This document shows positions 12,069 to 29,388 of a stretch of 64,000 bases of DNA, in pieces. Both the position numbers and the translations under genes were made by a program. Source of the DNA: Sulfurospirillum arcachonense DSM 9755 (GTDB lineage: Bacteria; Campylobacterota; Campylobacteria; Campylobacterales; Sulfurospirillaceae); assembly GCF_000597725.1 (NCBI RefSeq), contig NZ_JFBL01000016.1, positions 1-64,000 of the forward strand, in the 5' to 3' direction. Under the pieces are notes generated by a model that worked only from the letters and a program-made list of their open reading frames with translations, was not told where the DNA came from and ran no database searches. The number at the start of each line of letters is the position of its first letter. Position 1 is the stretch's first letter.

Positions 12069-12074
12069 GTTAAA

Positions 12075-12431: not shown

Positions 12432-12502
12432 CTATGATCTCCTAAAATTTTTGATAATTTTACTATAATCATTCTATGAGTTTGCTTGTATTTAAATAAA
12501 AT

Positions 12503-12853
12503 TTATTTTATAAATATTTTTTTTATTTTATTTAATCCTAGTTGTATTCCACCGTATCTCATAATAGTTGCCAATTTCTTCCATTGAGTCTTTTCATAAC
12601 AAGGATTTGGGCATTTTCTACATCTTGGTTTTTCATCGTGTGGGCATTCTTTGAGTCTTTGATAAGAGTAGACAAAAGTTTCTTTACATGTAGAGCATAA
12701 GTGATATTCTAGTTTTTCATCTAAATTTTCATTGAGGTAGTTTAATTGAAGAGTTTCATAGAGTTTTGTTGCATCTTTATGTTTGTCATCGCAGTATATT
12801 TGTATAAATTTTAAAACAGTAGAACTATCGATTATAAACTTTTCTTTTGTCAA
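12503..12853 (-). CDS. YgbA-type nitrous-oxide-stimulated-promoter family protein
   Basis: A 116-residue protein matching the YgbA_NO family pattern: FIQIYCDDKHK near the start, LCSTCKETFVYSYQRLKECP in the middle, then CRKCPNPCY and IMRYGGIQLGL. The clustered cysteines suggest a bound metal or Fe-S centre. Family members in other bacteria are induced by nitric oxide or nitrosative stress; the biochemical role is poorly defined. The start is TTG, supported by GGGGAGGAAAAAG upstream and by a TTGA overlap with the stop of the lipoprotein gene, so the pair is translationally coupled. Confidence 0.85.
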   Translation of the reverse strand: MTKEKFIIDSSTVLKFIQIYCDDKHKDATKLYETLQLNYLNENLDEKLEYHLCSTCKETFVYSYQRLKECPHDEKPRCRKCPNPCYEKTQWKKLATIMRYGGIQLGLNKIKKIFIK

Positions 12854-13365
12854 TTTCTTTTTCCTCCCCGTTTAGACCATTTGTAGTCGTGATCATTGTT
12901 TATTTTAGAGAAGTATAGTTTTCCTGAATTTCTCCAAGGGTCTATGAGTATTCCCTCATCAAATGAACAACCTTTACATGTAATAACTAAAGAGTTGTGC
13001 TCTTGCCAATAATCATTAATATTTGCTCCACCTATATAATAATCAAAGTTATTTAGATTTTGTTTTTTAGCATGTTCTAGCATATCATAGGCAAAATGCC
13101 AACAAAGACCTCTTTTCTTGATTCCAATGTTGACTAAGAAGTTGTGATATAAAGGAGGGGAAACAAGGTGATACTCTTTTGTTAGTTTTTCTGATTGTTT
13201 TATCATTTGATACGAAAGTGCTTGAGCCTCATTTTTGTCAATTTTATTGTTAAAAGTTAATAGTAGAGTTAATTTATTTAGAGGAATTTTTTTCTTGGTT
13301 GGTCCCTGTGGAGTACTGCATCCGATAAAAATTAAAGATAAGAAGAGGACTATAATATATTTCAT
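12850..13365 (-). CDS. Lipoprotein with a possible Cys-His-Asp (transglutaminase-like) triad
   Basis: A 171-residue protein with a lipobox (SLIFIGC, cysteine 16) that should anchor it to a membrane facing the periplasm. The mature part has C88 in RGLCWHFAYDM, H123 in QEHNSLVIT and D142 in ILIDPWRNSG, in the order and context of papain- or transglutaminase-like catalytic triads. Two more cysteines (VITCKGC) lie between H and D. No named family is recognised. It is the first gene of a pair with the YgbA-like gene, which it overlaps by four bases. The activity is inferred from motif order alone. Confidence 0.6.
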   Translation of the reverse strand: MKYIIVLFLSLIFIGCSTPQGPTKKKIPLNKLTLLLTFNNKIDKNEAQALSYQMIKQSEKLTKEYHLVSPPLYHNFLVNIGIKKRGLCWHFAYDMLEHAKKQNLNNFDYYIGGANINDYWQEHNSLVITCKGCSFDEGILIDPWRNSGKLYFSKINNDHDYKWSKRGGKRN

Positions 13366-13517
13366 TCAAAATTATAGCAAATAAAGAAAATAAATATATA
13401 AATAATTTTAAATATTACAATATAATTACATATATAGTATTAAAATAACTTTTTAAATAAGATATTAGTATATTTTATATATACTCCCTCTTTTTATCTC
13501 TTGATTTTAGGCCAATA

Positions 13518-15425
13518 ATGAAAATATTTTATTTATTTATGTTATTTAGTAGTATACTATTTGCAGATTCCTTAAGTAGTTTACTTCAAAAATATAAAAA
13601 TACTTCTGAAAAATCTTTAAAAACTGTAGATGAAAAATTAGGTCATGTTATTATTTATTCTCAAAAAGAGATTAGATTAATGCAATATAACAAACTTAGT
13701 GATATTTTAAAAGAACTTCCTCTGATGAATTTTAATACAAATAGATATGGACTTACAAGTCCATCTTTAGCAGGAACAAAAACTACTACGAGTGGTTTTT
13801 TTAGATTTTTTATAAATGATCATGAAATAAGTTCAGCATATAGTCAATCAGAAGCTTTATCTTGGGATGATTTACCTTTAGATTTTATCGATCATGTAGA
13901 GATATATTATGGAGATAGCTCATTTGCTAAAGGCAATGAAACGGGTATCTATTTTATAAGAATGTATACGAAATCTGCGCTAAAAGAGAATGCTAATGAG
14001 ATTAAACTAAGAGGCTCCAATAATGGTAGCAATTTACAAAGTGTTATGCAGTCACAAAGTTTTGAGAATGGTTGGTCAACTTTACTTTTTTTCAATAATG
14101 AAAAATCAAATGCAACAATGGATTATGAAGATCAAACTTTGCAAAATAATAGTAATAGAAAGTATCTGTATCTAGATGTAAGTAATGAGAATACAAATAT
14201 AAATATTGGTTATGCAAATATAAAAAAAGATAATTATATGGGTTTATCTTTTGATGTGCAACCTGATGGTGGAGAGATAGAATCAAAAGATTTTTTTGTT
14301 GATATAACACAATATTTTTTAGAAGATAAGTCTATTAAATTGGGGCTTTCTTTTGATATTAATAATCTATACAATGAAGAAAAAAACAAAGAAGGTATAG
14401 GATTAATTCCTGTTTTAGACTTAGCAAGTCTGGGGACTACTATACCAAAAGAATATAATACTGAAGCGCAATTAACTAAAACTAATGTATATTTATCCAA
14501 ATCTTTTCAATACAAAAATAATAATTTTTTAACAGCAATAAATATAAAAAATAAACAATATAAAACTAAACACAGGACAACCGTTAATTTCTTGAATACA
14601 AAAACAGATGTAGGACAGTATAGTGATTTTGATGAAGAGACGGCTTATTCTTTTTTGTTTGAAGATGATTATAGAGTCAGTAAAGACCTTATTTTAATTG
14701 CAAATGCGAAAGTTGATAAATATAACAAAAAAGGTTATCTTGAAGATTCTACAGAAAAATTATTTAGAATAGGGACTATATACACACCTTTTAAAAACTT
14801 TGGATTAAAAAGTTTTTATACAAGCACCTACATCCCTATATCTTTTTACAATACAGATTTAGCAAATAAAAATAGTAAAAATCTTAAATCACAAAAGTAT
14901 AAAATAGCTACATTTGAAGGTGTTTATACTCATGGTGAATCAAAGTTTAGTGTACTTTATCATAATGTTAAGATCCATGATTTTGTGTATTTAACTCCTG
15001 TAGGTTTTATAAATGTTGACCATGATATTAAAACAGAAGGTTTAACTTTTAATTATGAATATCATTTTTCTAATACCAATAAAATAAATCTCAATTATTA
15101 TGCAATGAGATTGAGTGAAACTATAAATAATTCTGATAAGGGTGGTTATATAAAATACATGGGAGAGTATGATAAGTTTTCCTATTTTACTTCTTTGCTT
15201 TATAAAAGTTCTTATGATTATCTTGATATACATGTGAGATCTAGTTTTGATTTGAGTTTAGGAGTGACATATAATTTTAGTAAAGATTTAAGTGCTAGTA
15301 TTAAAGGTTCAAATTTATTAAATAAATCGACTAAATCACTTTATACAAAAGGCTTTCCTGGCGATACCTTTGCGTTAGAAGATCATGATAGAAGTATATA
15401 TTTTAGTCTTAAGTGGGTGTTTTAA
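13518..15425 (+). CDS. TonB-dependent receptor-like outer-membrane protein
   Basis: A 635-residue protein with a signal peptide (MKIFYLFMLFSSILFA) and a plug-like domain at about residues 45-155 (YNKLSDILKELPLMNFNTN, then FIDHVEIYYGDSSFAKGN). About 22 amphipathic beta segments end in a C-terminal aromatic residue (YFSLKWVF), as in outer-membrane barrels. The plug resembles TonB-gated receptors, though no convincing TonB box is visible. Its stop overlaps the next gene by one base (TAATG) and the third gene is a c-di-GMP enzyme, so a signalling role for the receptor is possible. The ligand is unknown. Confidence 0.8.
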   Translation: MKIFYLFMLFSSILFADSLSSLLQKYKNTSEKSLKTVDEKLGHVIIYSQKEIRLMQYNKLSDILKELPLMNFNTNRYGLTSPSLAGTKTTTSGFFRFFINDHEISSAYSQSEALSWDDLPLDFIDHVEIYYGDSSFAKGNETGIYFIRMYTKSALKENANEIKLRGSNNGSNLQSVMQSQSFENGWSTLLFFNNEKSNATMDYEDQTLQNNSNRKYLYLDVSNENTNINIGYANIKKDNYMGLSFDVQPDGGEIESKDFFVDITQYFLEDKSIKLGLSFDINNLYNEEKNKEGIGLIPVLDLASLGTTIPKEYNTEAQLTKTNVYLSKSFQYKNNNFLTAINIKNKQYKTKHRTTVNFLNTKTDVGQYSDFDEETAYSFLFEDDYRVSKDLILIANAKVDKYNKKGYLEDSTEKLFRIGTIYTPFKNFGLKSFYTSTYIPISFYNTDLANKNSKNLKSQKYKIATFEGVYTHGESKFSVLYHNVKIHDFVYLTPVGFINVDHDIKTEGLTFNYEYHFSNTNKINLNYYAMRLSETINNSDKGGYIKYMGEYDKFSYFTSLLYKSSYDYLDIHVRSSFDLSLGVTYNFSKDLSASIKGSNLLNKSTKSLYTKGFPGDTFALEDHDRSIYFSLKWVF

Positions 15426-15889
15426 TGAAAACTATTATATCTTTAATAACTTTAGTATCATTCTCTTATGCGAACCAATATACTTTTTTACTTGATAAGT
15501 ATGATAAAGAGATAGAACTTGAGGCAAAAATTATAGCAAAAATTGCAACAGCGTCGATAAGTAAACAAATAAAACTTTTTATACCACAAATATCTCCTAT
15601 GGAAAAAAAGGTATATTCTAAATTTTTTACTTTAGCAAAAAATTGTCAAACATCAAATTTTGTATTTATGAATAAAACTATAGACAATGAAGAGCTGTGT
15701 GTTAAAACAAATAAACTGTTTTTTACAAATAATTATAAAAAATTATTAGCAGACAATAGATATTATGGAGCATTTTTTTGGTATAAAAGTAGACCAAACA
15801 TTGTTTTTGTAAAAAATAGACTTAAAACAAAAGGCATAGAATTACCTCAAGAATATAATCAGTATATTGAGGATTTGGATGAGAAATAA
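15425..15889 (+). CDS. Small periplasmic protein between receptor and c-di-GMP enzyme (YfiR-like position)
   Basis: A 154-residue protein from the ATG at 15425 (TAATG overlap), preferred over the in-frame start 12 bases earlier. It has a signal peptide (MKTIISLITLVSFSYA) and a mature alpha/beta domain containing two cysteines (AKNCQTSN and EELCVKTN), then GAFFWYKSRPNIVFVKNRL. I do not recognise a named family. Size, export and position resemble YfiR, the periplasmic repressor of the diguanylate cyclase YfiN, but homology is not shown. It overlaps the next gene by about 10 bases. Confidence 0.65.
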   Translation: MKTIISLITLVSFSYANQYTFLLDKYDKEIELEAKIIAKIATASISKQIKLFIPQISPMEKKVYSKFFTLAKNCQTSNFVFMNKTIDNEELCVKTNKLFFTNNYKKLLADNRYYGAFFWYKSRPNIVFVKNRLKTKGIELPQEYNQYIEDLDEK

Positions 15890-17786
15890 GTTTTTTATAA
15901 AAAATCCAATATATTTAATTTACCTTATTGTAACGGTTGTTATTATATTATTGCTTTTATTATACGGGACAATAAAACTAGAAGAAAAAGTTGAAAAAAA
16001 GATGTTTGAAATTTCAACATCTGATGTACTACAAATTGCAAGAAATAATGCAAAGATTATAGGGGCATTTTTAAAAAATAGTAACAATTATGTTAAGGAT
16101 ATAAAATATGATGTTATGTTACGAGGAAAGATAGAAAATCAGATAGAATCTTTGCCCACAAAAAATATAAAATATGCCTATCTTTTATATCGAGATAGTA
16201 AAGGAACATTTAGATTTTTAGCAGATGCATCAAAACCCTCTGAAAAAGCATTTTTAAATCAAAAATTTGATGTAACAAGTTCTAAATGGAATGAAATCTA
16301 TGATAAAAAAGAACCTTTTATAATCAAACAGCCACTTTTAAAAGAGTTATCCATTAGTTACCTAGTTCCTATACTTTATAAAGAAAAGGTAGAGTTAATA
16401 TTAGCAATTGATTTTTCAATTAAAAAAGTAGAAAATATAAATAATATAATTTCTTTAATGAAAAAAGCAATCTTAGCAATGATTGGGGTAATTATTGTTT
16501 TTGGTCTTATTCTTGTAGTACAAACATTTAGGTATTTTATTGTGAAAAAAACTGCTTATGTAGATAAACTAACCAATGTTTTTAATCGAAATTATTTACA
16601 AGAGCTTCAAGAATTTATAAATTTACATGATTATGTATTAGCAACATTAGATATTGATCATTTTAAAAAAGTAAATGATACTTATGGACATAATATTGGA
16701 GATCTTGTTTTAAAAGAAATTGCAAAGCTTATACTAAAAACTTCAAGAAAAAAACATGATATTGTTATTAGATATGGGGGAGAAGAGTTTGTAATCTTAT
16801 TAAAAACTAAACGAAATGATAAATTAAGTGCTTTAAATGTTATAGAAAAAATTTTTACTACAATCCAAGAGAATAAATTTTATATTTCCCCTTTAGAGTA
16901 TATTTATGTAACTGTTTCAATAGGTGTAAATTTAGTTCCATACAAATCAAGAACTTTTTCTGAAGCTTTTAGATTAGCAGACATTGCACTTTATAATGTA
17001 AAAGATAAAGGTAGAAATGCAATAGAAATATATGAAGAAAAGGATAGACGGAAAAATAATGCAAATATGTCTATAAGTGAAATTAATGCAGCTATTGAAG
17101 AAAATAGAGTTATATGTTATTTCCAACAAATTGTTGAAACTCAATCCAAAAAATTGTCTCATTATGAAGCACTTCTTCGTATCATCGATAAAAATGGTAA
17201 TATAATCACACCAGACAAAATATTACCTTCAATAAGAGGAACATTTATTTTACGAAATATTACTAAAATAGTGTTAGATATCTGTTATAAGAGACTATTG
17301 TCCAATGATGATGTTTACATAAATGTAAATTTAAATCCCCAAGATATTGTTAATGAATCTATACTAAATATTTTAAATGATTATGCCCAAATAGATAACA
17401 TTTCTAATAGAATGGGTTTAGAAATAGTTGAAAGTGAAGATATTATTAATTATTCAGATGCAAAAGAAAATCTTTTAATGTTGAAAAAATTAGGATATAA
17501 AATTTTTATAGATGATTTTGGAAGTGGATATTCAAATTTTATATATTTAACAGAAATTCAAACAGATTTTATAAAGTTAGATGGGAATATTATCAAAAAA
17601 ATTGTTGAAGATAAAGTTTCATTTCTTGTTGTCAAAAGTATAGTTAATTTTGCGAAAGAAGCAAATATAAAAGTTATCGCTGAATATGTATGTAATGAAG
17701 AAATATATAAAATAATAAAAACTCTTGGTATTGAATACTCTCAAGGATATTTGTTTTCAACACCAAAATTATTTGAAGAACATTAA
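15879..17786 (+). CDS. Membrane-bound GGDEF-EAL protein with periplasmic sensor
   Basis: A 635-residue protein. ATG 15879 is chosen because a GAGG site lies 6 bases upstream; an in-frame TTG sits 12 bases earlier. Membrane helices at about residues 10-33 and 195-215 enclose a Cache/PAS-like periplasmic domain. The GGDEF domain is intact (LDIDHFKKVNDTYGHN, RYGGEEFVIL) and so is the EAL domain (YEALLRI, NLNPQDIVN, ESED, IDDFGSGYSNF, KLDG, AEYV). It could therefore both make and break c-di-GMP. It is the output gene of the receptor-periplasmic protein-enzyme operon, and its sensor domain faces the compartment of the second gene product. Confidence 0.92.
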   Translation: MRNKFFIKNPIYLIYLIVTVVIILLLLLYGTIKLEEKVEKKMFEISTSDVLQIARNNAKIIGAFLKNSNNYVKDIKYDVMLRGKIENQIESLPTKNIKYAYLLYRDSKGTFRFLADASKPSEKAFLNQKFDVTSSKWNEIYDKKEPFIIKQPLLKELSISYLVPILYKEKVELILAIDFSIKKVENINNIISLMKKAILAMIGVIIVFGLILVVQTFRYFIVKKTAYVDKLTNVFNRNYLQELQEFINLHDYVLATLDIDHFKKVNDTYGHNIGDLVLKEIAKLILKTSRKKHDIVIRYGGEEFVILLKTKRNDKLSALNVIEKIFTTIQENKFYISPLEYIYVTVSIGVNLVPYKSRTFSEAFRLADIALYNVKDKGRNAIEIYEEKDRRKNNANMSISEINAAIEENRVICYFQQIVETQSKKLSHYEALLRIIDKNGNIITPDKILPSIRGTFILRNITKIVLDICYKRLLSNDDVYINVNLNPQDIVNESILNILNDYAQIDNISNRMGLEIVESEDIINYSDAKENLLMLKKLGYKIFIDDFGSGYSNFIYLTEIQTDFIKLDGNIIKKIVEDKVSFLVVKSIVNFAKEANIKVIAEYVCNEEIYKIIKTLGIEYSQGYLFSTPKLFEEH

Positions 17787-17796
17787 GAGATGAGCA

Positions 17797-18276
17797 TTAG
17801 ATTTCTAAAGCTTCTTTAGATGTTATAATACCGTCATTATCAGCATATAAATACTCATTTTGTACTAACTTAACACCTGCAAAATTTAAAGTAATTTCTT
17901 GTTCTCCCTTATTTATAATGGGAGCTTTTTTAGGACAAGTTCCAAGGGCAAAAAGTCCTACATCTATACTTTGAGTATTTATAATATCTCTTACATATCC
18001 ATTAACTATTATACCTGCCCAATTATTTTCTTTAGCAAATGCCATAAGTTTGTCTCCAACTACAGCAATATATTTAGCATCCACATCTACAACACAGACT
18101 CTTTTATCTCCTTTAGTTTTAAGAAGTTTTATAAGCTCAGTATTATTATCGATAAGTTTACATGTAGCTATCTTCCCATAAAACTTATCAATTCCACCGT
18201 ATGAGTTAAAACCAGGGTTTAGCACTTGTACTTTATCGTCATATTTATCGCATAAATCCGCTGTACTAAATGACAT
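17797..18276 (-). CDS. rraA: RraA-family protein (RNase E inhibitor-like / hydroxymethyl-oxoglutarate aldolase fold)
   Basis: A 159-residue RraA-like protein. GDKLMAFAKENNWAGIIVNG followed by YVRD matches the family core, including the arginine-aspartate pair used by the class II pyruvate aldolase relatives. The N-terminal FSTADLCDKY is typical of RraA. Campylobacterota generally lack a canonical RNase E target, so an aldolase or oxaloacetate decarboxylase activity is as likely as regulation of RNA decay. It is divergent from the glutamate mutase operon, with 158 bases between the genes. A C4/C5 dicarboxylate role would fit that neighbour but is speculative. Confidence 0.88.
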   Translation of the reverse strand: MSFSTADLCDKYDDKVQVLNPGFNSYGGIDKFYGKIATCKLIDNNTELIKLLKTKGDKRVCVVDVDAKYIAVVGDKLMAFAKENNWAGIIVNGYVRDIINTQSIDVGLFALGTCPKKAPIINKGEQEITLNFAGVKLVQNEYLYADNDGIITSKEALEI

Positions 18277-18397
18277 TGAATCTCCTAAAATTTTTATTTA
18301 ATTATAACCGGTAAAATTGAAGTTACAATTAATATACTCATCTCTAAATTTTTCTTTCCATTTTAACAAGTTAATTATATACTATAAATAATTTAGA

Positions 18398-18403
18398 TAA
18401 AAT
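18398..18403 (+). promoter_or_regulatory. Probable -10 box of the glutamate mutase operon
   Basis: TAAAAT preceded by TTTAGA lies 31 bases before the glmS start, in the phylum's usual promoter style. No B12 riboswitch is visible: the leader is too short and lacks a B12-box-like element. Confidence 0.45.
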
Positions 18404-18434
18404 TTAGCCCATACTAGAAAAAATGGATAAATAG

Positions 18435-18839
18435 ATGAAAGTTGTAACAGGTGTAGTAGGTAATGACATACATGTAGTTGCAAATAGATTGATTGATATT
18501 TCCTTGCAAGCAAGGGGATTTGAAGTTTTTAATCTAGGCGTAAATACACATTTAGAAGAGTTTATAGATGCAGCTGTAGAGAGTGATGCTGATATAATTC
18601 TCATATCTTCACTTAATGGTGAAGCTGAAGGTTGGTGCAGAGATTTACAATTTTTAAGAGCAGAGTATGCACTTAAAAATGTAGTTTTTGTTATTGGTGG
18701 TAATCTCTCTGTTGGTGAAGCAAAAGATGAAGATATTGTTCCTAAGTATGAATCGTATGGTTTTGATTTGGTATTTCATCAAGTAGATTTGAATACAGGA
18801 TTGGATAAATTAGAAGAATTTTTAGGTAAACGCTCATGA
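18435..18839 (+). CDS. glmS: Glutamate mutase sigma (B12-binding) subunit
   Basis: A 134-residue cobalamin-binding protein of GlmS size. The B12 motif is present as NDIHVVANRL: D11 and H13 (the lower cobalt ligand) are kept, while the family glycine at position 16 is alanine. The further signatures SSLNGEAEGW and VIGGNLSVGEAK match the SL and GG elements of the B12 domain. With GlmE it interconverts glutamate and (2S,3S)-3-methylaspartate by a radical carbon-skeleton rearrangement. It overlaps glmE by four bases (ATGA). The ribosome site is weak. Confidence 0.93.
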   Translation: MKVVTGVVGNDIHVVANRLIDISLQARGFEVFNLGVNTHLEEFIDAAVESDADIILISSLNGEAEGWCRDLQFLRAEYALKNVVFVIGGNLSVGEAKDEDIVPKYESYGFDLVFHQVDLNTGLDKLEEFLGKRS

Positions 18840-20203
18840 GCCTGCATCAAAAAGAGAGAGACATAATAGTCCAAAATGAGTATGTAGATAATTTTGATTT
18901 TTCTGAAATAGAAGAGTTTATCACAAATGCTAGCAAAGATTTGTTTATATCTCATAAGTTTAAAAATAGCAGCACTACCTTAGTGCAACCTCGTGGGGGA
19001 TTTCCTACATACAACAAACAGTATGAGCTTTACGAAGAGTTTGAAAAAGCTGATATTGATGTCATGCCACTGACTATAGACTCTCATACAAGATTAAATG
19101 ACTATGGTAGTGCAAAAAAGATGCTTATGTTGAGTGAAGCAAATGAAGTTGATATGCTTAATGGTTATCCCTTAGTAAATCATGGATACAGAAATACAAG
19201 AAAAATGGTTACTCATTTTAATCGACCAGTAAGTTTAAGACATGGAACACCTGATGCAAGACTTTTAATCGAAACTGCACTTGCAAGTGGTATTTTTGAA
19301 ATAGAAGGTGGACCTATTACCTATCTATTGCCTTATTCTAAAAACTTTCCACTTGATAAAGCCTTTTTATACTGGAAATATGTAGAAAGAGTATGTGCAA
19401 ATTATTCAGGCTTAAATGAACCAATCAATAGAGAATCTTTTGGACCATTAACTGCAACACTTGTACCTCCATGTATTACTATTGTAATTCAACTTTTAGA
19501 GATGCTTTTATCTTTAGAAGAGGGGGTAAAATCTTTTTCAGTAAGTTTTGCTCAGACGGGTTCAGTAAACCAAGATGCAGTAATGGCAAATGTTATAAGA
19601 AAAATGGCAGATTTTTACGCTAAAAAAATTGGTGTAGAAGATGCAACTATAAATTTAGTTTATCATCAATGGATGGGAGCATTTCCAAGAAACAAAGAGT
19701 TTTCAGATTCACTTATTAATACAAGTTCATTTATAGCTAGTTTAGTGAGAGCTGATAAGATAATTATTAAAACAAGAGATGAAGCTTTTGGTATTCCTAC
19801 TATGCAGTGTAACGCTCAATCAGTAGCAAATACAAAGTATACGTTTAAAGTACTTAAGGGTTTACCTCCAATAGTTGACGAAGAAGAAGAGGCTATCTTA
19901 GAAGAGGAAATCCACTCTATCATGGAAGCCGTTTTCAATGATAGTGCAGATACTCTTTGGAGAAAGACTTTTAATTCAATCAAAAATGGAATTATAGACG
20001 TTCCATTTTCACCACATATTATTAACCATAATGCAGTAGTTACTATACGAGATGAGCATAGTAATATAAGAATTATAGAAAAAGGAAATCTTCCTATTAG
20101 TGAGAAGTGTTTTGCATATGAGAAATCAAAAGTAAAATTGAGTGAAGATAAAACAACTGTAATTAATAAGATTATAGAAGATATAGGAGTTATGCATGAG
20201 TAA
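18836..20203 (+). CDS. glmE: Glutamate mutase epsilon (catalytic) subunit
   Basis: A 455-residue TIM-barrel subunit. Residues matching the known active site are all visible: the arginine claw R53 (QPRGGFPTYNKQ), R86 (TIDSHTRLNDY) and R135 (SLRHGTPDARL), plus E157, Y163 and Y167 in EIEGGPITYLLPY. These positions correspond to R66, R100, R149, E171, Y177 and Y181 of the clostridial enzyme, so glutamate should be the substrate. It lies between glmS and glmL with overlaps on both sides. It is somewhat shorter than the clostridial subunit but looks complete. Confidence 0.95.
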   Translation: MSLHQKERDIIVQNEYVDNFDFSEIEEFITNASKDLFISHKFKNSSTTLVQPRGGFPTYNKQYELYEEFEKADIDVMPLTIDSHTRLNDYGSAKKMLMLSEANEVDMLNGYPLVNHGYRNTRKMVTHFNRPVSLRHGTPDARLLIETALASGIFEIEGGPITYLLPYSKNFPLDKAFLYWKYVERVCANYSGLNEPINRESFGPLTATLVPPCITIVIQLLEMLLSLEEGVKSFSVSFAQTGSVNQDAVMANVIRKMADFYAKKIGVEDATINLVYHQWMGAFPRNKEFSDSLINTSSFIASLVRADKIIIKTRDEAFGIPTMQCNAQSVANTKYTFKVLKGLPPIVDEEEEAILEEEIHSIMEAVFNDSADTLWRKTFNSIKNGIIDVPFSPHIINHNAVVTIRDEHSNIRIIEKGNLPISEKCFAYEKSKVKLSEDKTTVINKIIEDIGVMHE

Positions 20204-21401
20204 ACTTTTAATAGATGTTGGAAGTACCTACTTTAAAATTAGCTCTGATGATGGAGTAGAGCAACAATTTCGTGATTTTAGTAAAACTATTTTTGATGAT
20301 TTAACTAGTAAGTTTGGAGATACGATTAATAAGTATAATAAAGAAAGTGTACATATCTGTTCTTCTGCAAATGGAGGACTTAGTACTCTTATTATTGGGC
20401 TTACAAACTCGTTTAGTTTAAAGTATGCAAAAAATATAGCATTTAACTCTGGAATTAATATCATAGATACGGTTTTATATCACCATATAGATAAAAGTGC
20501 AGTTCCTGGTGATCTGTTAGATGTTGTTATAGTTGTAGGAGGAATTGATAGTGTTGGTGGTATATATGACGATAAACTATTTAAATATCTTGAAAAATTG
20601 AGTTACAGCAATATTGTGTATGTAGGAAGTCAAAAAGATGCACAGTATCTTAGCAAAAATATAGAATCATTAGTTGTATTAGAAAATATCATTACAGATA
20701 AACTAAAAATGAAAGAAGAGGCTTTAAAAGAGTACTTAACAAATCTTTATCAACAAGATATCGTTGGAAAAGAAGATATTAAACATTTATATGAGCTTAC
20801 TTCAAATCAAATCTATTCTACACCATATATTGTAAATCAATCTCTTCCTTATGTGGATGCAAGACATGAAGTGATAAATCCTTTTATTGTAGTAGATATC
20901 GGTGGGGCTACGACTGATATACATTATAGTAGAGATTTATCCCGTGAGAATATGTTAAGTGAGAGTGAATACGACAGACTTGTGTTTAAAAAACTTGGTG
21001 TTTATAAGTCAAAAGAGAGTTTGATATTTGCTGCAAAAAATAATGAATTTGTTTATGAGTTGTTAAACTACTTAAATGTAACAGAAAATATACTTGAACA
21101 AACTGATGAAAAAGCGTTAAGGGTATTAATGCAATTATCTATATTTTTAGTACTGTGTAAAGTTTCAACACATAATTCAATGTATATAACACTAAACCTA
21201 CATCTTTTAAAAAGTATAGTTTTAACAGGTGGAATAACAAAAGTTTTAAGTTTTGAAGAAGTTGAAAGTATTGTGCAGTTTTTTTATAAAAAAATACTTC
21301 ATACAACAGCAATACCGACAATATTACTTGATTCAAATTATGATATTTGGACTTTAGGTATGAATGCAATAGAAGATAAAAGGATTGAAAATGTCAATTA
21401 A
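20196..21401 (+). CDS. glmL: MutL/GlmL family protein, glutamate mutase partner ATPase
   Basis: A 401-residue ASKHA-fold protein. LLIDVGSTYFKI is the first phosphate loop and IVVDIGGATTDIHYS the second; VLTGGITKV is the adenosine loop. The family accompanies glutamate mutase genes and is thought to help reactivate or load the B12 enzyme. It is shorter than many MutL proteins (about 450-600 residues), mainly between the phosphate motifs. It overlaps glmE by eight bases and the next gene by eleven, so the four genes form one tightly coupled operon. Confidence 0.9.
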   Translation: MSKLLIDVGSTYFKISSDDGVEQQFRDFSKTIFDDLTSKFGDTINKYNKESVHICSSANGGLSTLIIGLTNSFSLKYAKNIAFNSGINIIDTVLYHHIDKSAVPGDLLDVVIVVGGIDSVGGIYDDKLFKYLEKLSYSNIVYVGSQKDAQYLSKNIESLVVLENIITDKLKMKEEALKEYLTNLYQQDIVGKEDIKHLYELTSNQIYSTPYIVNQSLPYVDARHEVINPFIVVDIGGATTDIHYSRDLSRENMLSESEYDRLVFKKLGVYKSKESLIFAAKNNEFVYELLNYLNVTENILEQTDEKALRVLMQLSIFLVLCKVSTHNSMYITLNLHLLKSIVLTGGITKVLSFEEVESIVQFFYKKILHTTAIPTILLDSNYDIWTLGMNAIEDKRIENVN

Positions 21402-22965
21402 CTGTATGAGATCACTAATAGAAAGAGCAAATAGGAAAACACCAACAAGTATTGCTGTTATAGACTCAAAGCAACAATTAACATATAATGAACTTTTTAC
21501 AAAAGTAAATCAAGTTGCACACTATTTAAGCGAATTAGAACTTTCAAAAGGGAGTCGTATAGGGATTTATTCTTATAAAAATGCTGAACAAGTTATAGCT
21601 ATCCTTGCTATTATGTCAACAGACTATATTTTTGTACCTATTTCAAGATTGCTAAAACCTGAACAAGTTGAACATATTATTAATGATTGTGGCATTACAT
21701 GTATAATCACGGATAAGGCAAAATTGAAAAATATTGATGAGGTAAACTATAACGGAACTATCATTACTTATGAAGCGACTAATAGAGAAATAGTATCGTT
21801 TGAAGAGATTTATAAATGTTGTACAAAAAAATATGAGTGTAACATAGGTGGACACTCAAATGCTACTATTACTTATAGCTTTGGTTCATCTGGATTTCCT
21901 AAAGGTATAGTTATTACGCATAGAAATTTAGTTGATAGTGCTAGAGTTGCATCTCAGTATCTTGAAATTCAAAGTGACGATGTTATCTCAGGAATACTTC
22001 CTTTTACTTTTGATTATGGTTTAAATCAAATTTGTAGTGCAATTTATAAAAGAGCTACCTTAGCAGTTCATAGTATGCTTTTAGCATCTGATTTTTTTAA
22101 TCATGTTTTAAATGATAAAGTAACCATTATACCTCTTATGCCTATACATATAACACAAATGTTTGATGATACAAGTATGAGAGTACCAAATCCACAATTA
22201 CTTGCCAATGTAAGAAAAATAACAAGTTCAGGTGGAAAAATCACAGATAAGATGATAAAAGATATAGATGCACATTATCCAAATGCACAATTTTACTCAA
22301 TGCATGGATTAACTGAAGCTTTTCGTTCTACTTATCTAGATCCAAGTCAATTAAAAATACGTCCAGAATCTATCGGTAAACCAATTCCTGATGTTGAAAT
22401 TTATATTGTCAATGAAAATGGAGAAGAGTGTAAACCAAGAGAAATTGGAGAACTTGTTCATCGTGGAGGATATATCTATAAAGGATATTGGAATGCAAAA
22501 GAACAAACAGATAAGTTATATAAATCTATTAAAGTGTTAGAAAAAGTTGTCAATTTAGAAGGTGACTTAACAGACGAAATTGTTGTCTGTAGTGGTGATT
22601 ATGTATATAAAGATGAGGAAGGCTATATCTATTTTGTATCAAGAAAAGATGATATGATAAAATCATGTGGTTTTAGAATCAGTCCTTATGAAATAGAAAG
22701 AGTTGTTTACAATAATCTCCCTTTTGTAAAAGAGTGCGCAGTTTTTTCAGTAGAAAATGAAAAAATAGAAGAAGAAATAATTATGGCATATAGTGCTTCA
22801 AAAGAGGTAGCAAAAAATGAAATACTTTTTGAATTAAAAAAACACTTACCAAATCATATGATTCCAGTAACTATTTTATATAAACAAAAACTTCCTCAAA
22901 CAAGTCCAAGTAGTGGAAAAATTGATAAAGAAGTATTGAAAAAAGAGGTTTTAGAAGTAGTTTAA
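21391..22965 (+). CDS. AMP-forming acyl/aminoacyl ligase (adenylation domain) of the glutamate mutase operon
   Basis: A 525-residue ANL-superfamily enzyme. The ATG at 21391 with AGGA six bases upstream is preferred to an in-frame TTG. Motifs in order: TYSFGSSGFPKGIVITH (phosphate loop), SMHGLTEAFR (A5), CSGDYVYKDEEGYIYF (A7), SRKDDMIKSCGFRISPYEIE (A8) and the catalytic lysine in SSGKIDKEVL (A10). It activates a carboxylate with ATP and passes it to a thiol, either CoA or a carrier protein. Its coupling to glutamate mutase suggests 3-methylaspartate or a derivative as substrate, as with the adenylation enzymes next to glutamate mutase in vicenistatin-type clusters; this is inference. No carrier protein gene adjoins it. 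Confidence 0.85.
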   Translation: MSINCMRSLIERANRKTPTSIAVIDSKQQLTYNELFTKVNQVAHYLSELELSKGSRIGIYSYKNAEQVIAILAIMSTDYIFVPISRLLKPEQVEHIINDCGITCIITDKAKLKNIDEVNYNGTIITYEATNREIVSFEEIYKCCTKKYECNIGGHSNATITYSFGSSGFPKGIVITHRNLVDSARVASQYLEIQSDDVISGILPFTFDYGLNQICSAIYKRATLAVHSMLLASDFFNHVLNDKVTIIPLMPIHITQMFDDTSMRVPNPQLLANVRKITSSGGKITDKMIKDIDAHYPNAQFYSMHGLTEAFRSTYLDPSQLKIRPESIGKPIPDVEIYIVNENGEECKPREIGELVHRGGYIYKGYWNAKEQTDKLYKSIKVLEKVVNLEGDLTDEIVVCSGDYVYKDEEGYIYFVSRKDDMIKSCGFRISPYEIERVVYNNLPFVKECAVFSVENEKIEEEIIMAYSASKEVAKNEILFELKKHLPNHMIPVTILYKQKLPQTSPSSGKIDKEVLKKEVLEVV

Positions 22966-22999
22966 TTTAAACTTATGGATTGTTTAAGTAAAAAAAAGG

Positions 23000-23005
23000 T
23001 AAAAT
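23000..23005 (+). promoter_or_regulatory. Probable -10 box of the rpmH operon
   Basis: TAAAAT after an A-rich stretch and GG, about 36 bases before the rpmH start. The position fits the head of the rpmH-rnpA-yidD-yidC-jag-mnmE operon. Confidence 0.45.
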
Positions 23006-23041
23006 CTGTGCCTAAAAAACAAATTTAATGAAGGATTTTTG

Positions 23042-23176
23042 GTGAAAAGAACATATCAACCACATAGTACTCCTAGAAAACGTACTCACGGTTTTAGAAC
23101 GAGAATGAAGACTAAGAATGGTCGTAAAGTTATCGCTGCACGTCGTGCAAAAGGTAGAAAAAGATTGGCACTGTAA
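23042..23176 (+). CDS. rpmH: Large ribosomal subunit protein bL34
   Basis: A 44-codon gene. The product starts with the invariant [20 protein letters not shown] and ends in arginine/lysine-rich [13 protein letters not shown], which identifies bL34 beyond doubt. The start is GTG with an AAGGA site seven bases upstream. It is the first gene of the conserved rpmH-rnpA-yidD-yidC-jag-mnmE block. Confidence 0.97.
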
Positions 23177-23177
23177 T

Positions 23178-23499
23178 ATGTTTTGAAAAACTCAAACTAA
23201 CTAGTGAGTTTTCAAACGTTTATAAACACGGGAAGAAATGGCACTCAGATGGTGTTGTTGTCTTTTTCAAAGAAGGTTCAGAAAAGAAGGTTGGTTTTAC
23301 AGCTAGCAAAAAAGTTGGTAATGCTGTCAAAAGAGCTTTAGCAAAACGTAGAATGCGTGCATTGTTTTTTGACAATCAAGATAGATTGGTTGATGGTATT
23401 TATGTATTTGTAGCGAAAGAACGTATGAGTCAGATGTCTTATGAAGCTTTAAAAAAAGGGTATCTTTGGTCTCTTAAGAGACTGGGATGTTTAAATTAA
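23178..23499 (+). CDS. rnpA: Ribonuclease P protein component, with a one-base lesion near the start
   Basis: The product is clear: SNVYKHGKKWHSDGVVVFF, TASKKVGNAVKRALAKRRMR (the RNR-like RNA-binding motif) and a C-terminal helix ending at TAA 23497-23499. It binds the RNA subunit of RNase P and aids tRNA 5' processing. This frame has no ATG, GTG or TTG before the conserved region. An ATG at 23178, one base after the rpmH stop, reads AUG UUU UGA and stops. Dropping one T from the TTTT tract at 23181-23184 gives MFEKLKLTSEF and joins the rnpA frame. A sequencing indel, a +1 shift on UUU-UGA, or a rare AUA (23176) or AUU (23164) start are the options. Confidence 0.85.
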
Positions 23500-23849
23500 T
23501 GAGGCGTCTGGCGCTTTTTGTCCTTAAACTATATCAAAAGTTTTTTACTCTTATGAGTTATGGAAGTTGTAGATATTATCCAACTTGCTCAGAATATGCT
23601 AGATGGCAGATTCTCCATAATGGGTTTTTAAAAGCTTGTTTTTATAGTTTATTGAGAATTTTAAGATGTAATCAGTTATTTCCTGGTGGAATTGACTATC
23701 CAGTTATAACTAAAAATTTTCATTACTCTCTATGCGCTACTCCACACCCACTTTCTGTAAAAATAAAGTTTTGGTTCGTACCAAGAAAACTTAAAAGTTT
23801 TTACGTAATAAAAGCTTTTAATATACACTCTCAAAAGGGAACACCGTGA
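23499..23849 (+). CDS. yidD: Membrane protein insertion efficiency factor YidD
   Basis: A 116-residue protein from the ATG at 23499, which overlaps the rnpA stop (TAATG); an in-frame ATG at 23487 is an alternative with a slightly better ribosome site. The family core CRYYPTCSEYARWQILHNG with its cysteines and the FPGGIDYP end are plain. The ~45-residue basic extension after the core is longer than usual. YidD assists YidC-dependent membrane insertion, and the yidC gene follows with a 4-base overlap. Confidence 0.93.
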   Translation: MRRLALFVLKLYQKFFTLMSYGSCRYYPTCSEYARWQILHNGFLKACFYSLLRILRCNQLFPGGIDYPVITKNFHYSLCATPHPLSVKIKFWFVPRKLKSFYVIKAFNIHSQKGTP

Positions 23850-25432
23850 TAGACAAACTGAGCAATCAGAGTAGAATAATTATAGCAACGGTTTTATCAT
23901 TTTTATTCTTCGCAACATATAACTACTTTTTTATTCCAAAACAAGAAGTTACTGAACAGAAAACACAAGTTGAAAAAGCACAAAAAGTAGGTTCTCAACC
24001 TATAACTTCTGTTGCACCTTCTTCATCTGATATACCAAGTCAAGTAAGTAAAAAAAGTGTAGAAATCATAACAAAAGTACAAGCCGCTTCTTATGAATTG
24101 CATATAGATAGACTGGGACGTATTAGTAAGTTTTATTTAAATGAAACGAAGTATAAAGATGAAAATGGTGATAGAATCGAACTTATTGATTCTGAGTTAG
24201 TTCCATATCCTTTAGAAATTCGTTTTTCAGATGAAAATATAAATTCTCAAGCATTTGCAACATCTTATACTGCAAGTGAAAGTGAAATTAAAGTAGCTGA
24301 TAAAGGTACTAAATTGACACTTACACAATCTTTAAGCGATTTAAAGATTGTAAAAACTTTAACTTTTTTTCCTAATGGTAATTATGACCTTAGTGTAACA
24401 ATGAGTAATCCTAAAGAGTATTTTATAACACCAGGTTTTAGACCAAATGTAGGAATTGATAGTTATACGTTTCACGGATCTTTAATTAAAGAAGCAGATG
24501 AAACATTAAGTGTTATAGATGATGGTGATGCTACAGGTAAAGAAGCATTTGCTAATGCAATTTTTGCGGCTTCTTCAGATAAGTATTACACAACACTATT
24601 TTATAATTTTGATAAAGGACTAGATGTAGTTGTTAGTCCTGTTTATGAAGAATCTCCTCTACTTTTTATAAAAGGGAAAAATAACTTAAAATTAAGTGGT
24701 TATCTTGGACCAAAAGAGCATACAGTACTTGTTGCAATTGATAAAAGATTAACAGATGTTATAGAGTATGGTTTTTTTACCTTTATTTCTAGACCTTTAT
24801 TTATGCTACTTCAATACCTTCATTCAATACTGGGTAACTGGGGTTGGTCAATTGTTTGTATGACACTTCTTATTCGTTTAGTACTATTTCCTTTGACATA
24901 TAAAGGTATGGTATCAATGAATAAATTAAAGGCTTTAAGTCCAAAGATAAAAGAACTTCAAGCAAAATATGGTAAAGATAAACAAAAACTGAATACTCAT
25001 ATGATGGAACTTTATAAGAAACATGGAGCAAACCCTATGGGTGGTTGTCTTCCAATTGTTTTACAAATTCCTGTATTTTTTGCAATTTATCGAGTATTAC
25101 AAAATACGATTGAATTAAAAGCAGCTCCTTGGATTTTGTGGATACATGATTTAGCTGTTATGGATCCATATTTTGTTCTGCCTATTGCAATGGGTTTAAC
25201 AATGTTTTTCCATCAACGAATTACACCAACAAACTTTACTGATCCAATGCAAGAAAAGATTATGAAATTTTTACCACTGATATTTACATTCTTCTTTGTA
25301 TCTTTTCCAGCTGGTTTAACACTTTATTGGTTTGTAAACAACTTATTTTCAATTGCTCAGCAATACTATGTAAATTCACTTTTTGCGAAAGGTCAAAAAG
25401 CAGAAATAACTGAAAAAAAGGCTAAAAAATGA
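23846..25432 (+). CDS. yidC: Membrane protein insertase YidC
   Basis: A 528-residue insertase starting at GTG 23846 (overlap GTGA with yidD). The N-terminal membrane helix (IIIATVLSFLFFATYNYFF) is followed by a Gram-negative type periplasmic beta domain of ~290 residues. The conserved five-helix core begins near residue 330 (LHSILGNWGWSIVCMTLLIR). It contains the cytoplasmic hairpin KLKALSPKIKELQAKYGKD, NPMGGCLPIVLQIPVF and the hydrophilic-groove arginine in TLLIRLVLFP. It inserts and folds inner-membrane proteins with or without Sec. Confidence 0.98.
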   Translation: MIDKLSNQSRIIIATVLSFLFFATYNYFFIPKQEVTEQKTQVEKAQKVGSQPITSVAPSSSDIPSQVSKKSVEIITKVQAASYELHIDRLGRISKFYLNETKYKDENGDRIELIDSELVPYPLEIRFSDENINSQAFATSYTASESEIKVADKGTKLTLTQSLSDLKIVKTLTFFPNGNYDLSVTMSNPKEYFITPGFRPNVGIDSYTFHGSLIKEADETLSVIDDGDATGKEAFANAIFAASSDKYYTTLFYNFDKGLDVVVSPVYEESPLLFIKGKNNLKLSGYLGPKEHTVLVAIDKRLTDVIEYGFFTFISRPLFMLLQYLHSILGNWGWSIVCMTLLIRLVLFPLTYKGMVSMNKLKALSPKIKELQAKYGKDKQKLNTHMMELYKKHGANPMGGCLPIVLQIPVFFAIYRVLQNTIELKAAPWILWIHDLAVMDPYFVLPIAMGLTMFFHQRITPTNFTDPMQEKIMKFLPLIFTFFFVSFPAGLTLYWFVNNLFSIAQQYYVNSLFAKGQKAEITEKKAKK

Positions 25433-26340
25433 TACGTATAGAAGCAGCTACACTTGAAGAAGCATATTCTCAAGCAGCGACTAAATTATCTTGCTCAGTT
25501 ACACAAATTTCATTTAAAGTAATTCAAAATCCAAGCTCTGGATTTTTGGGTATGTTTAAAAAAAGTGCAATAATAGAAGCTAGTCCTAAAGATGCTTCTA
25601 TGACAAATCAATCTACTCCTAATAGTGCATTAGGAGTAGATAAACCTAAAAAAAGTAGAAATAGACGCAATAAAAATAGAAAAAAAGAACACTTAAGTGA
25701 ATCAGTAGACACTAAAGTTGAAGAAAAAGCTCAAACAAATAAGAAACAAGAATCTCATAAAAAACCTCTCCAAAAGAAAAAATTTGAAGAAAAAAAACAA
25801 TCAGAAAAAACAGCTGAAAAACCTATACAAAAAGTATCTAATAGAAGAGAATATACTAAACCAAAAATTGAAATTAGTATAGCAGTAGAAGAAATTAGAA
25901 AAGATATTAACTCACTTTTTACTCATAGTTGTTTTGAGTTAAATGAAATTAAAGTAGAAGTTTATAGTGAAGATACAGTCTTAGTAGAATTTGGTGGAGA
26001 AGATGCAGCTTTACTTATAGGTAAAGAAGGCTATAGATATAAATCTCTTTCATATCTTTTATATAATTGGATAAATTTAAAGTATAATCTAAATGTACGT
26101 TTAGAGATTGCAGAATTTTTAAAAAATCAAGAAGAGATGATTGCCAAATATCTTGTTGGTGTAATTGATCGTATTAATAACACTGGACGTGCTCAAACAA
26201 AAATCTTAGATGGTGTTCTTGTAAAAATTGCTCTAGAAGCTTTGCGTAAAGAATTTCCTAATAAATATGTTGGTATTAAATCAGGTCGTGAAGGCGGTAG
26301 ATTTATCGTTATTAATGATTTTAATAGAAAAAATACATAA
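25429..26340 (+). CDS. jag: Jag/EloR-type RNA-binding protein
   Basis: A 303-residue protein. The Jag N-domain (EAATLEEAYSQAATKLSCS, then GFLGMFKKSA) is followed by a lysine-rich linker of about 80 residues (KKSRNRRNKNRKKEH onward). A KH domain comes next (ALLIGKEGYRYKSLSYLLYN) and then an R3H-like end (ALRKEFPNKYVGIKSGREGG). It binds RNA in the cytoplasm and in other bacteria links to cell elongation. It overlaps yidC by four bases and is followed by mnmE after two bases. Confidence 0.93.
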   Translation: MIRIEAATLEEAYSQAATKLSCSVTQISFKVIQNPSSGFLGMFKKSAIIEASPKDASMTNQSTPNSALGVDKPKKSRNRRNKNRKKEHLSESVDTKVEEKAQTNKKQESHKKPLQKKKFEEKKQSEKTAEKPIQKVSNRREYTKPKIEISIAVEEIRKDINSLFTHSCFELNEIKVEVYSEDTVLVEFGGEDAALLIGKEGYRYKSLSYLLYNWINLKYNLNVRLEIAEFLKNQEEMIAKYLVGVIDRINNTGRAQTKILDGVLVKIALEALRKEFPNKYVGIKSGREGGRFIVINDFNRKNT

Positions 26341-26342
26341 CA

Positions 26343-27680
26343 GTGGATACAATTGCAGCTATTGCAACAAGTCATGGAGTTGGCTCTATAGCGGTTATTC
26401 GCTTAAGTGGGCCAAACTCTTTAGATATTGCGAAAAAACTCTCACATAAAGATAATTTTACTCCAAGACATGCTACACTCTCATCTTTATATGACGATGC
26501 CAATGATTTGATTGATGAATCATTAGTTATATACTTTCAAGCACCTCGTTCATTTACTGCTGAAGATGTTATAGAATTTCAGTGTCATGGTGGGATAGTT
26601 GTTGCTGATTTGATACTAAGTGAAGTATTAAAACATGGTGCAAGATTAGCTCAACCAGGTGAATTTTCAAAACGTGCTTTTTTAAATGGCCGTATAGATT
26701 TAACAGAAGCAGAAGCAATTGCAAAACTCATAGAAACAAAAAGTATAGATGCAGCAAAGATTTTAACTCGCCAAATGAAAGGTGAAGTTAAAGAATTTGT
26801 AGAAAATATTCGTGAAAGTTTAGTTGAAATTTTGGCATTTGTTGAAGTAAATATAGATTATGCTGAAGAAGATTTACCACAAAATTTAATGGATCAAATA
26901 AAAGATAAATTAGATAATTTAAGAATTGAACTAAAAAAAACCTATGATAGCTCAAAAAGACGAGAAGGATTGATAGAAGGTTTTAAAGTTGCCATAGTAG
27001 GAAAACCTAATGTTGGGAAAAGTTCATTATTAAATGCTTTACTTAACTATGATAGAGCGATTATTAGTGATATTGCAGGAACTACAAGAGACACGATTGA
27101 AGAAGAAGTACGAATAGGAACACACCTTATAAAGATAGTTGATACTGCAGGAATTAGAGAAGCAAATGATACTATTGAAAAGATAGGGATAGAACGCTCT
27201 AAAACAGCTATAGAAGAGTCAGATATAGTTATATCTATGTATGATAACTCTCGTGTATTTGATGAAGAAGATGCTCAAATATTGAGTTTATTACAAAGTT
27301 ATGGTAATGATAAAGCTATTTTACATGTAATAAATAAAAGTGATTTAGACTCTAAGTTTCATAATGTAATGATTGCTGAAAAAGCAATCAAATTAAATTG
27401 CAAATTTGGAGCAGAAACAATTGCTTTAGAAATAGAAAAAATTCTAGACAAAAGTTCACTGGATGAAACACTACTTTTGACTTCAAAAAGACAGATGGAA
27501 GCTGTTGAAAATACATATAGTAGTATAGAAATGAGTATTGAACTTTTAAGTGAAGGTGAGTTAGAACTTTTTGCTTTTAATCTTAATGAAGCTATTATGA
27601 GTATATCTTCTATTTCACGAAATTTTGCAAGAACAGAAATCCTAGACAAAATGTTTGGAAGTTTTTGCCTAGGAAAATAA
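26343..27680 (+). CDS. mnmE: tRNA modification GTPase MnmE
   Basis: A 445-residue protein starting at GTG 26343. The N-terminal formyl-THF-binding domain (DTIAAIATSHGVGSIAVIRL) leads to a helical domain into which the G domain is inserted: GKPNVGKSSLLNAL, TTRD, DTAGIRE and NKSD. The C-terminal tetrapeptide is CLGK, the family's CIGK variant with the catalytic cysteine. With MnmG it modifies wobble uridine 34 of several tRNAs. It ends the rpmH operon and faces the phosphate transporter with only two bases between the stops. Confidence 0.98.
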   Translation: MDTIAAIATSHGVGSIAVIRLSGPNSLDIAKKLSHKDNFTPRHATLSSLYDDANDLIDESLVIYFQAPRSFTAEDVIEFQCHGGIVVADLILSEVLKHGARLAQPGEFSKRAFLNGRIDLTEAEAIAKLIETKSIDAAKILTRQMKGEVKEFVENIRESLVEILAFVEVNIDYAEEDLPQNLMDQIKDKLDNLRIELKKTYDSSKRREGLIEGFKVAIVGKPNVGKSSLLNALLNYDRAIISDIAGTTRDTIEEEVRIGTHLIKIVDTAGIREANDTIEKIGIERSKTAIEESDIVISMYDNSRVFDEEDAQILSLLQSYGNDKAILHVINKSDLDSKFHNVMIAEKAIKLNCKFGAETIALEIEKILDKSSLDETLLLTSKRQMEAVENTYSSIEMSIELLSEGELELFAFNLNEAIMSISSISRNFARTEILDKMFGSFCLGK

Positions 27681-27682
27681 CC

Positions 27683-29224
27683 TTATATTCCCATAAGAGC
27701 CTTTAATATAAAGAAAAATATTCCTGATGATATAGCGGCTATTGGTAAGGTGACTACCCATGCTAAAGCTATTGGTTTCATCAAATTCCAGTTTGCATTT
27801 CTATTGAGTATACCAATCCCTATAACAGCACCTATAAGAATATGCGTAGATGATACTGGAATACCCATTTTAGTTGCCATCAAAATAACTGCACTTGCTC
27901 CAAGTTCTGCTGAAAATCCTGTTATAGGCGATATTTCAGCTAATCTTGTTCCTACTGTTTGAATAACTTCTTTACCTAAAAACCATAGACCTACTATAAG
28001 AGAAACTCCAAAAGTAGCCATAGCAACTATAGGAACAGGTGCTTTTGCGTTAATAATACCAGTTTTTAAAACATCTAGAATTGCTGCAAATGGTCCAATG
28101 GCATTTGCTATATCATTTGCACCATGACTAAAAGCAAACGCAGATGCTGTGAAAATTTGTAGCCATGAGAAAATTTTGATGGTTGATTTATCAACATCAC
28201 TTTTTGCCATTAAGTTGACTATTGCAAAACTTATGAGATAAGCGGCCGTTGCAATTACGAAAACAATCCACATTGTTTCAATGGTAGTAACATTTAATTT
28301 AAGATGTTTTAATCCTTTAAACAGTAACATCCCAGAAATAATAGATGCAGCAAAACCACCTACAAGAGGAACATGTTTTTTTAAAAATGCAAATGCATCT
28401 ATGCTTTTTTCTTTTTCTTTTAATTCTTTAATCATTTTTTGATAATCGCTTGATGTTTCAAGTTCATCATCATCTTCCATAAAGGCAAGTTCTGATAACT
28501 CTTTTATCTGTTCTTCTTGAGATTTATCTTTAAGAGTTATCTTATATGCTTCTTTGAGAGTTTTTCTTCTACCTTTTATTCTACTTATTTTAGCAACTGC
28601 TCTTTTTCCTGGAGTTAATATTTTATTTTTTATGTAATAGTAAATTATATAAGATAAAAGTCCACCAAGTAAAGGAGAGACTACCCAACTTATTGCAATT
28701 TGTACTATTTTACTCCAATTTACCATATCTATAACATTATCGTTTGTTGTAAGAACTGTACCTAAAGCTAAACTACTACCAACTATACCACCAACTATTG
28801 AATGGGTTGTAGAGACAGGAAGACCTTTTTTTGAAGCAAAAAGTAACCATAAACCAGCACTTAGTAGTGATGACATCATCACTAAAACAAAAAGCATTGG
28901 ATCAAAATTTACATCAGGAATTTTTACAATCCCTTTTCTAATTGTATTAGTAACTTCACCACCTGCAAATATAGCACCACTTAGTTCAAATATAGCTGCT
29001 ATTACAAGAGCTTGTTTAATAGTTATAGTTTTAGCACCTACACTAGTACCAAAAGAGTTTGCAACATCATTTCCACCAATATTAAATGCCATAAAAATTC
29101 CAAAAATAGATGCAATTGAAAATAACATAAGATGATGAGAAGGTATAATTTTAAATCCCCAAACAAAAAAACCAAGAGTTGATATCAAAAATATGCCAAG
29201 TGCGATAATGTTGTCTTTAGTCAT
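27683..29224 (-). CDS. PiT-family inorganic phosphate transporter
   Basis: A 513-residue membrane protein with the duplicated PiT signature, FNIGGNDVANSFGTSVGAKT in the first half and SHGANDIANAIGPFAAI in the second. Twelve or so hydrophobic segments surround a charged cytoplasmic loop at about residues 205-285 (KRAVAKISRIKGRRKTLKEA, then an acidic stretch). It imports phosphate with protons or sodium; the coupling ion cannot be read. The long charged loop suggests control by a PhoU-like partner, but none is adjacent. The ribosome site is AAGGA. Confidence 0.95.
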   Translation of the reverse strand: MTKDNIIALGIFLISTLGFFVWGFKIIPSHHLMLFSIASIFGIFMAFNIGGNDVANSFGTSVGAKTITIKQALVIAAIFELSGAIFAGGEVTNTIRKGIVKIPDVNFDPMLFVLVMMSSLLSAGLWLLFASKKGLPVSTTHSIVGGIVGSSLALGTVLTTNDNVIDMVNWSKIVQIAISWVVSPLLGGLLSYIIYYYIKNKILTPGKRAVAKISRIKGRRKTLKEAYKITLKDKSQEEQIKELSELAFMEDDDELETSSDYQKMIKELKEKEKSIDAFAFLKKHVPLVGGFAASIISGMLLFKGLKHLKLNVTTIETMWIVFVIATAAYLISFAIVNLMAKSDVDKSTIKIFSWLQIFTASAFAFSHGANDIANAIGPFAAILDVLKTGIINAKAPVPIVAMATFGVSLIVGLWFLGKEVIQTVGTRLAEISPITGFSAELGASAVILMATKMGIPVSSTHILIGAVIGIGILNRNANWNLMKPIALAWVVTLPIAAISSGIFFFILKALMGI

Positions 29225-29388
29225 TTTTATCCTTCGATTGAGTATAGTATCAAGGAATTATCTCATAAAAAATCTTAGCTTTTTCTTGATAAATATTATT
29301 TTGTATCAAATTTGGTGTTATTGTATACTTTAAATTACATTGTACTAGAATGTTTACATGAGTATTTTACTATTATTAAGGAGATACT

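Follow-up and report, generated by a model that had tools for sequence, protein, structure and literature searches.

Glutamate mutase genes and their neighbours

A 64,000-nucleotide stretch of the genome of Sulfurospirillum arcachonense DSM 9755 (contig NZ_JFBL01000016.1; hereafter the window) contains, at positions 18435-22965, four open reading frames that overlap each other in one operon: the glutamate mutase genes glmS, glmE and glmL, and a gene for a ligase of the ANL superfamily. This arrangement was proposed in a preliminary description of the locus; all four frames were found in place, and family searches agreed with their names. Glutamate mutase is known from fermentation, from the haloarchaeal methylaspartate cycle and from actinomycete natural products. 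The features of the locus are as follows.

17797-18276, minus strand: rraA-subfamily gene (class II pyruvate aldolase/oxaloacetate decarboxylase type; PF03737), divergent from the operon
18277-18434, no strand: divergent intergenic region between rraA and glmS, without Rfam match
18435-18839, plus strand: glmS, B12-binding subunit, with DxHxxA replacing DxHxxG
18836-20203, plus strand: glmE, catalytic subunit of glutamate mutase
20196-21401, plus strand: glmL, reactivating ATPase, short form with ATPase motifs retained
21391-22965, plus strand: ANL-superfamily stand-alone activating enzyme (PF00501 and PF13193)
21871-21906, plus strand: degenerate A3 P-loop of the ANL enzyme (T163-G174, Phe at 166)
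22012-22017, plus strand: substrate-pocket Asp210-Tyr211 of the ANL enzyme (GrsA D235 and A236)
22918-22920, plus strand: Lys512, the A10 lysine of the ANL enzyme, conserved in 77 of 120 homologues

GlmS belongs to PF02310 and scores above the cut-off of the PRK02261 equivalog, GlmE matches PF06368 (E 3.7e-117), and GlmL matches PF13941. GlmE residues R53, R86, R135, E157, Y163, Y167, K312 and E316 were aligned to catalytic positions of the solved glutamate mutase, which we take to be the substrate and radical residues R66, R100, R149, E171, Y177, Y181, K326 and E330 in Clostridium cochlearium numbering. All eight are retained and lie within the set of positions at least 97% conserved among 113 GlmE sequences, confirming the earlier statement that the catalytic residues are complete. 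The system thus shares with its clostridial counterpart the same subunits, the GlmE catalytic residues and the GlmL ATPase motifs. Unlike the clostridial system, it has a DxHxxA motif in GlmS (Asp and His are kept, and Gly is replaced by Ala in 105 of 105 sequences), a short GlmL (about 390-430 residues) and no ammonia-lyase. The window GlmE is also distant from plasmid-borne fermentation-type GlmE (about 35% identity) and, at 365 bits, falls under the TIGR01503 cut-off of 390. In one other genome (G003, L050:3873-4599), two small open reading frames, by eye a nucleotidyltransferase (MNT)/HEPN-like pair, lie between glmS and glmE.

The start of the ligase was placed at ATG 21391 and not at TTG 21385, because homologues begin with M-[ST]-[IVL]-N; its residues are numbered here from TTG 21385. 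No cobalamin riboswitch or other Rfam RNA was found within positions 11000-30000 of the window, and promoter and terminator scans performed no better than chance. Directly downstream of the operon in Sulfurospirillaceae lies the conserved housekeeping cluster rpmH-rnpA-yidD-yidC-jag-mnmE (23041-27680 in the window).

Distribution and co-inheritance with rraA

A stand-alone, non-fermentative glutamate mutase with an activating enzyme in Campylobacterota was the central proposal of the preliminary description, and the neighbourhood survey that it recommended revealed a widespread system. Among 397 Campylobacterota genomes, glmE was found in 57, about one in seven, and not in the other 340; positive and negative genomes occur inside the same families. 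The ligase was present in 56 of the 57 glmE-positive genomes and in none of the negative ones. Campylobacterotal loci with the operon include those of Sulfurospirillum, Arcobacter, Sulfurimonas, Sulfurovum and Hydrogenimonas; judged by its closest relatives, the window resembles Sulfurospirillum. A scan of genome contigs located the operon also in Colwellia, Thalassotalea, Neptuniibacter, Haliea, Litorirhabdus, Vibrio hannami, Granulosicoccaceae and others, as well as on one short contig labelled Desulfobulbaceae. The ligases from outside Campylobacterota, mainly from marine Gammaproteobacteria, are about 60-63% identical to that of the window. The order glmS-glmE-glmL-ligase is kept in more than 100 fetched loci (some from the same genome) from two phyla and in varied surroundings, which argues that the cluster is not a chance association. 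In G268 (L096:6344-15417), about 5.7 kb of other genes separate glmS-glmE from the ligase, and the locus showed no glmL. A GlmE match in G383 was discarded as spurious (E 3.9e-4, 26% identity, residues 301-440 only).

The divergent rraA gene is inherited together with the operon; neither this nor the occurrence in marine Gammaproteobacteria was noticed in the preliminary description. An RraA homologue at E <= 1e-15 was found in 57 of 57 glmE-positive genomes versus 3 of 340 glmE-negative ones (Fisher p about 7e-66, without phylogenetic correction). Since rraA is unlinked to the operon in some glmE-positive genomes, the association exceeds an inherited neighbourhood. Among the three exceptions is G244, which holds a remnant (L239:6266-7476) consisting of rraA, glmS and a short ligase fragment, with glmE and glmL deleted. 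In Gammaproteobacteria, the rraA that accompanies the operon (island rraA) usually occurs alongside a second, more distant RraA, from which it is split in the tree with support 100/100. In the HMG/CHA aldolase literature, one of two aldolase motifs is ascribed to the majority of RraA homologues, which are regarded as probable class II pyruvate aldolases, enzymes that also decarboxylate oxaloacetate (PMC5065237). The island subfamily has the [DE]-x20-R-D active-site motif of the HMG/CHA aldolase-RraA family, with Arg96-Asp97 in all rows and Asp (as in the window) or Glu at position 75, and is distinguished within that family by its tie to glutamate mutase.

Several further observations concern the surroundings of rraA. 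At 13 gammaproteobacterial loci (L156:3168-4355 and 12 others), a gene for an aromatic/aspartate aminotransferase (PRK09257) is located on the far side of rraA, upstream of the glm genes. The island rraA of Colwellia maritima (L310, G423:C3:210377-210777; same genome as L167) is split across two frames. In Arcobacteraceae (L120:1516-6897), rraA is preceded by ovoA, by a ChaC-like gene and by a gene whose 738-residue product has no Pfam match. A link to ovothiol was considered and rejected, as ovoA also occurs in operon-free genomes and is absent from some operon-bearing ones.

The activating enzyme

The closest family to the ligase is TIGR03098, the exosortase A-associated ligases that are paired with the TIGR03099 PLP (pyridoxal 5'-phosphate) decarboxylases; its score of 468.6 bits is below the cut-off of 592.35. 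The enzyme is 33% identical to plasmid-borne members and shares the TEAFRST motif. In contrast to the glm clade, these ligases have a canonical P-loop and NGK motif, and their genes stand alongside those for an acyl carrier protein (ACP) and a PLP decarboxylase in polysaccharide clusters; in the glm clade the mutase replaces these partners, and no TIGR03099 decarboxylase was recognised beside the ligase in any mapped locus. Relatives on alphaproteobacterial plasmids likewise have an ACP and a LysA-like PLP decarboxylase as neighbours, in most cases within polysaccharide clusters. The exosortase-A ligase/decarboxylase pair (L128, L129, L130 and L131) with its nearby ACP resembles VinN-VinO-VinL of vicenistatin biosynthesis and, by analogy, may load an amino acid and decarboxylate it in the decoration of polysaccharides.

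The substrate pocket of the ligase was compared with those of characterized enzymes. Residues D210, Y211, S281 and R314 are invariant among homologues, and the first three correspond to GrsA positions 235, 236 and 301. The loop following the TE motif lacks one or two residues relative to LgrA. VinN has D230, F231 and S299 and a beta13-beta14 loop that is one residue short and holds K330 and R331 (PMC11253843). Counting from the TE motif, with VinN known from its published description, VinN R331 is matched by Arg314. The pocket therefore appears to be of the amino-acid type, and probably of the beta-amino-acid type. A fold search with the predicted model of the ligase (pLDDT, the predicted local distance difference test, of 84) retrieved the generic ANL fold and no specific partner. 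The vicenistatin analogy drawn in the preliminary description is only partly supported: glutamate mutase is combined with a stand-alone ANL enzyme, and the pocket resembles those of beta-amino-acid activators (Asp, bulky residue, Ser and short loop). The analogy does not extend to a dedicated carrier protein, a shared VinO-like PLP decarboxylase or a polyketide cluster, and the ATP site of the ligase is degenerate.

A possible methylaspartate module and its alternatives

The five genes, rraA, glmS, glmE, glmL and that of the ANL enzyme, may constitute a conserved, non-fermentative, B12-dependent methylaspartate module, a reading to which we give about an even chance. It draws directly on observations: the genes themselves, their co-inheritance, the intact mutase residues and the absence of methylaspartate ammonia-lyase from the window's genome. 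The latter enzyme (PF07476), whose presence had been set beforehand as a possible refutation, was not found there, and the same search was positive in control genomes. In the proposed mechanism, the GlmS-GlmE mutase would use adenosylcobalamin to turn L-glutamate into (2S,3S)-3-methylaspartate and would be reactivated by GlmL. The ANL enzyme would bind 3-methylaspartate via Asp210 in its VinN-like beta-amino-acid pocket and activate it for transfer to CoA, a housekeeping ACP or an amine. This transfer would pull the mutase equilibrium, which otherwise favours glutamate. More weakly, we infer that the RraA-type enzyme acts on 3-methyloxaloacetate, the 2-oxo acid that transamination of methylaspartate would yield, either to clean it up or to carry out a later step. 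The LysA-like PLP decarboxylase and ACP beside the ligase in its relatives follow a VinN-VinO logic and, as an analogy, would also speak for the module.

Several results weigh against this reading. The co-occurrence counts are phylogenetically non-independent. G382 (L112:5530-9864), the sole glmE-positive genome without the ligase, has glmS-glmE-glmL with no ligase following, and in G047 (L046:2137-3938) glmS-glmE stand with neither glmL nor ligase alongside. The position of VinN Lys330, counted from the TE motif, is Phe313 in the ligase, which leaves no clear partner for a carboxylate side chain; a beta-amino acid would fit the pocket, and a carboxylate side chain less clearly. The distant carrier protein or PLP decarboxylase that the preliminary description had suggested looking for was not recovered: among 18 glmE-positive genomes surveyed, there is no common dedicated carrier and no shared VinO-like decarboxylase. 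The single PF00550 carrier in 6 of these 18 is, by context or score, the fatty-acid ACP; no dedicated ACP lies near the operon in any mapped locus, and the second ACP of the window's genome (G000) adjoins a ketosynthase gene. PF02784 members are only LysA- or SpeA-sized in 16 of the 18; G256 has an additional member of 458 residues, and G361 has a weak one. The acceptor must therefore be CoA, a housekeeping ACP or something unrecognised. Finally, the ATP site is altered. In the 120 ligase homologues, the P-loop mostly reads Y-S-F-G-[LSVIM]-[ST]-G-x-P-[KRN]-G, in which Phe replaces the P-loop Ser in 117, the neighbouring hydroxyl position is mostly hydrophobic and the P-loop Lys is kept in 82; the A10 catalytic Lys is kept in 77, including the window enzyme. 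No canonical A3 P-loop was found among 107 distinct ligase sequences. At the same positions, 374 ANL enzymes have 94% Ser and 97% Lys in the P-loop and 100% Lys at A10 (PMC6122825; motif table in PMC8388817). Ordinary ATP-dependent adenylation thus cannot be assumed, and the activation chemistry of the proposed module may depart from it.

These ATP-site data bear most on a doubtful but possible alternative, in which the ANL enzyme has lost ATP-dependent adenylation and retains its AMP, substrate and thiolation sites. It would then either transfer a preformed adenylate or thioester or bind the mutase as a partner, and the module would not be an ordinary activation pathway. The case for this alternative is strengthened by four exosortase-type relatives, which keep the canonical motifs, and by the conservation in the ligase of E311, D405, R420, K426 and R431, the nucleotide and thiolation residues of motifs A5, A7 and A8. 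Asp405 is the ribose-binding Asp, and K426, R431 and E311 supply the lysine and the salt bridge for thiolation (roles from PMC11253843). The adenylation side of the enzyme thus appears to have drifted, and the AMP and thiolation side not. Of the earlier designation as an AMP-forming ligase, the family assignment and the AMP and thiolation residues hold, and adenylation is uncertain. The drift may signify that the enzyme uses ATP differently or not at all, or that the lysine comes from a shifted position. Lys512 is present in the window enzyme, and a lysine occurs within 508-514 in 111 of the 120 homologues (none in 9), so a shifted lysine may serve; phosphates can, moreover, be bound by backbone amides of the P-loop. 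We know of no precedent for this alternative. There is a modest chance, clearly short of even, that an ANL enzyme without ordinary ATP adenylation, a B12-dependent glutamate mutase and an RraA-type aldolase together form a new 3-methylaspartate-derived metabolite pathway in Campylobacterota and marine Gammaproteobacteria.

An unlikely alternative is that the genes make 2-oxobutyrate, a precursor for isoleucine or propionyl-CoA, from glutamate via 3-methylaspartate, which would be transaminated to 3-methyloxaloacetate and then decarboxylated by the RraA-type enzyme. The perfect RraA association, the oxaloacetate decarboxylase activity of RraA-type aldolases (PMC5065237) and the aminotransferase gene at the 13 gammaproteobacterial loci would suit such a route. 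The co-inherited ligase would, however, have no role in it, and the aminotransferase gene is absent from the mapped campylobacterotal loci. All 26 genomes tested, operon-bearing and operon-free alike, contained the threonine ammonia-lyase gene ilvA, and an isoleucine bypass as the main role was rejected on this ground. Quite improbable is a full vicenistatin-type logic, in which a carrier protein would receive methylaspartate, a PLP enzyme whose gene lies elsewhere would decarboxylate it, and the product would be destined for a peptide, lipid or glycan. The VinN-like pocket and the presence of both partners beside the ligase in the exosortase relatives point in this direction, but the carrier and decarboxylase surveys described above do not, and no gene for either partner was found in any mapped locus. 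Ordinary methylaspartate fermentation, or glutamate assimilation via mesaconate, can be virtually dismissed: the glutamate mutase is genuine, but the window's genome lacks the ammonia-lyase, no mesaconase or citramalate lyase was recognised beside the operon (a genome-wide search for these two was not made), and no pathway partner stands beside any mapped copy, unlike in Rhizobium sullae.

No publication on the glmS-glmE-glmL-ligase system was found in the literature searched, the coverage of which was incomplete. The activating enzyme with its altered ATP site is directly assayable. If the proposed methylaspartate module is real, it would represent a further chromosomal, non-fermentative use of glutamate mutase, in about one-seventh of Campylobacterota genomes and in marine Gammaproteobacteria. 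It would also give a role to an RraA subfamily now annotated as a regulator of RNase E, and add a B12-dependent trait to the environmentally important genera Sulfurospirillum, Arcobacter, Sulfurimonas and Colwellia.

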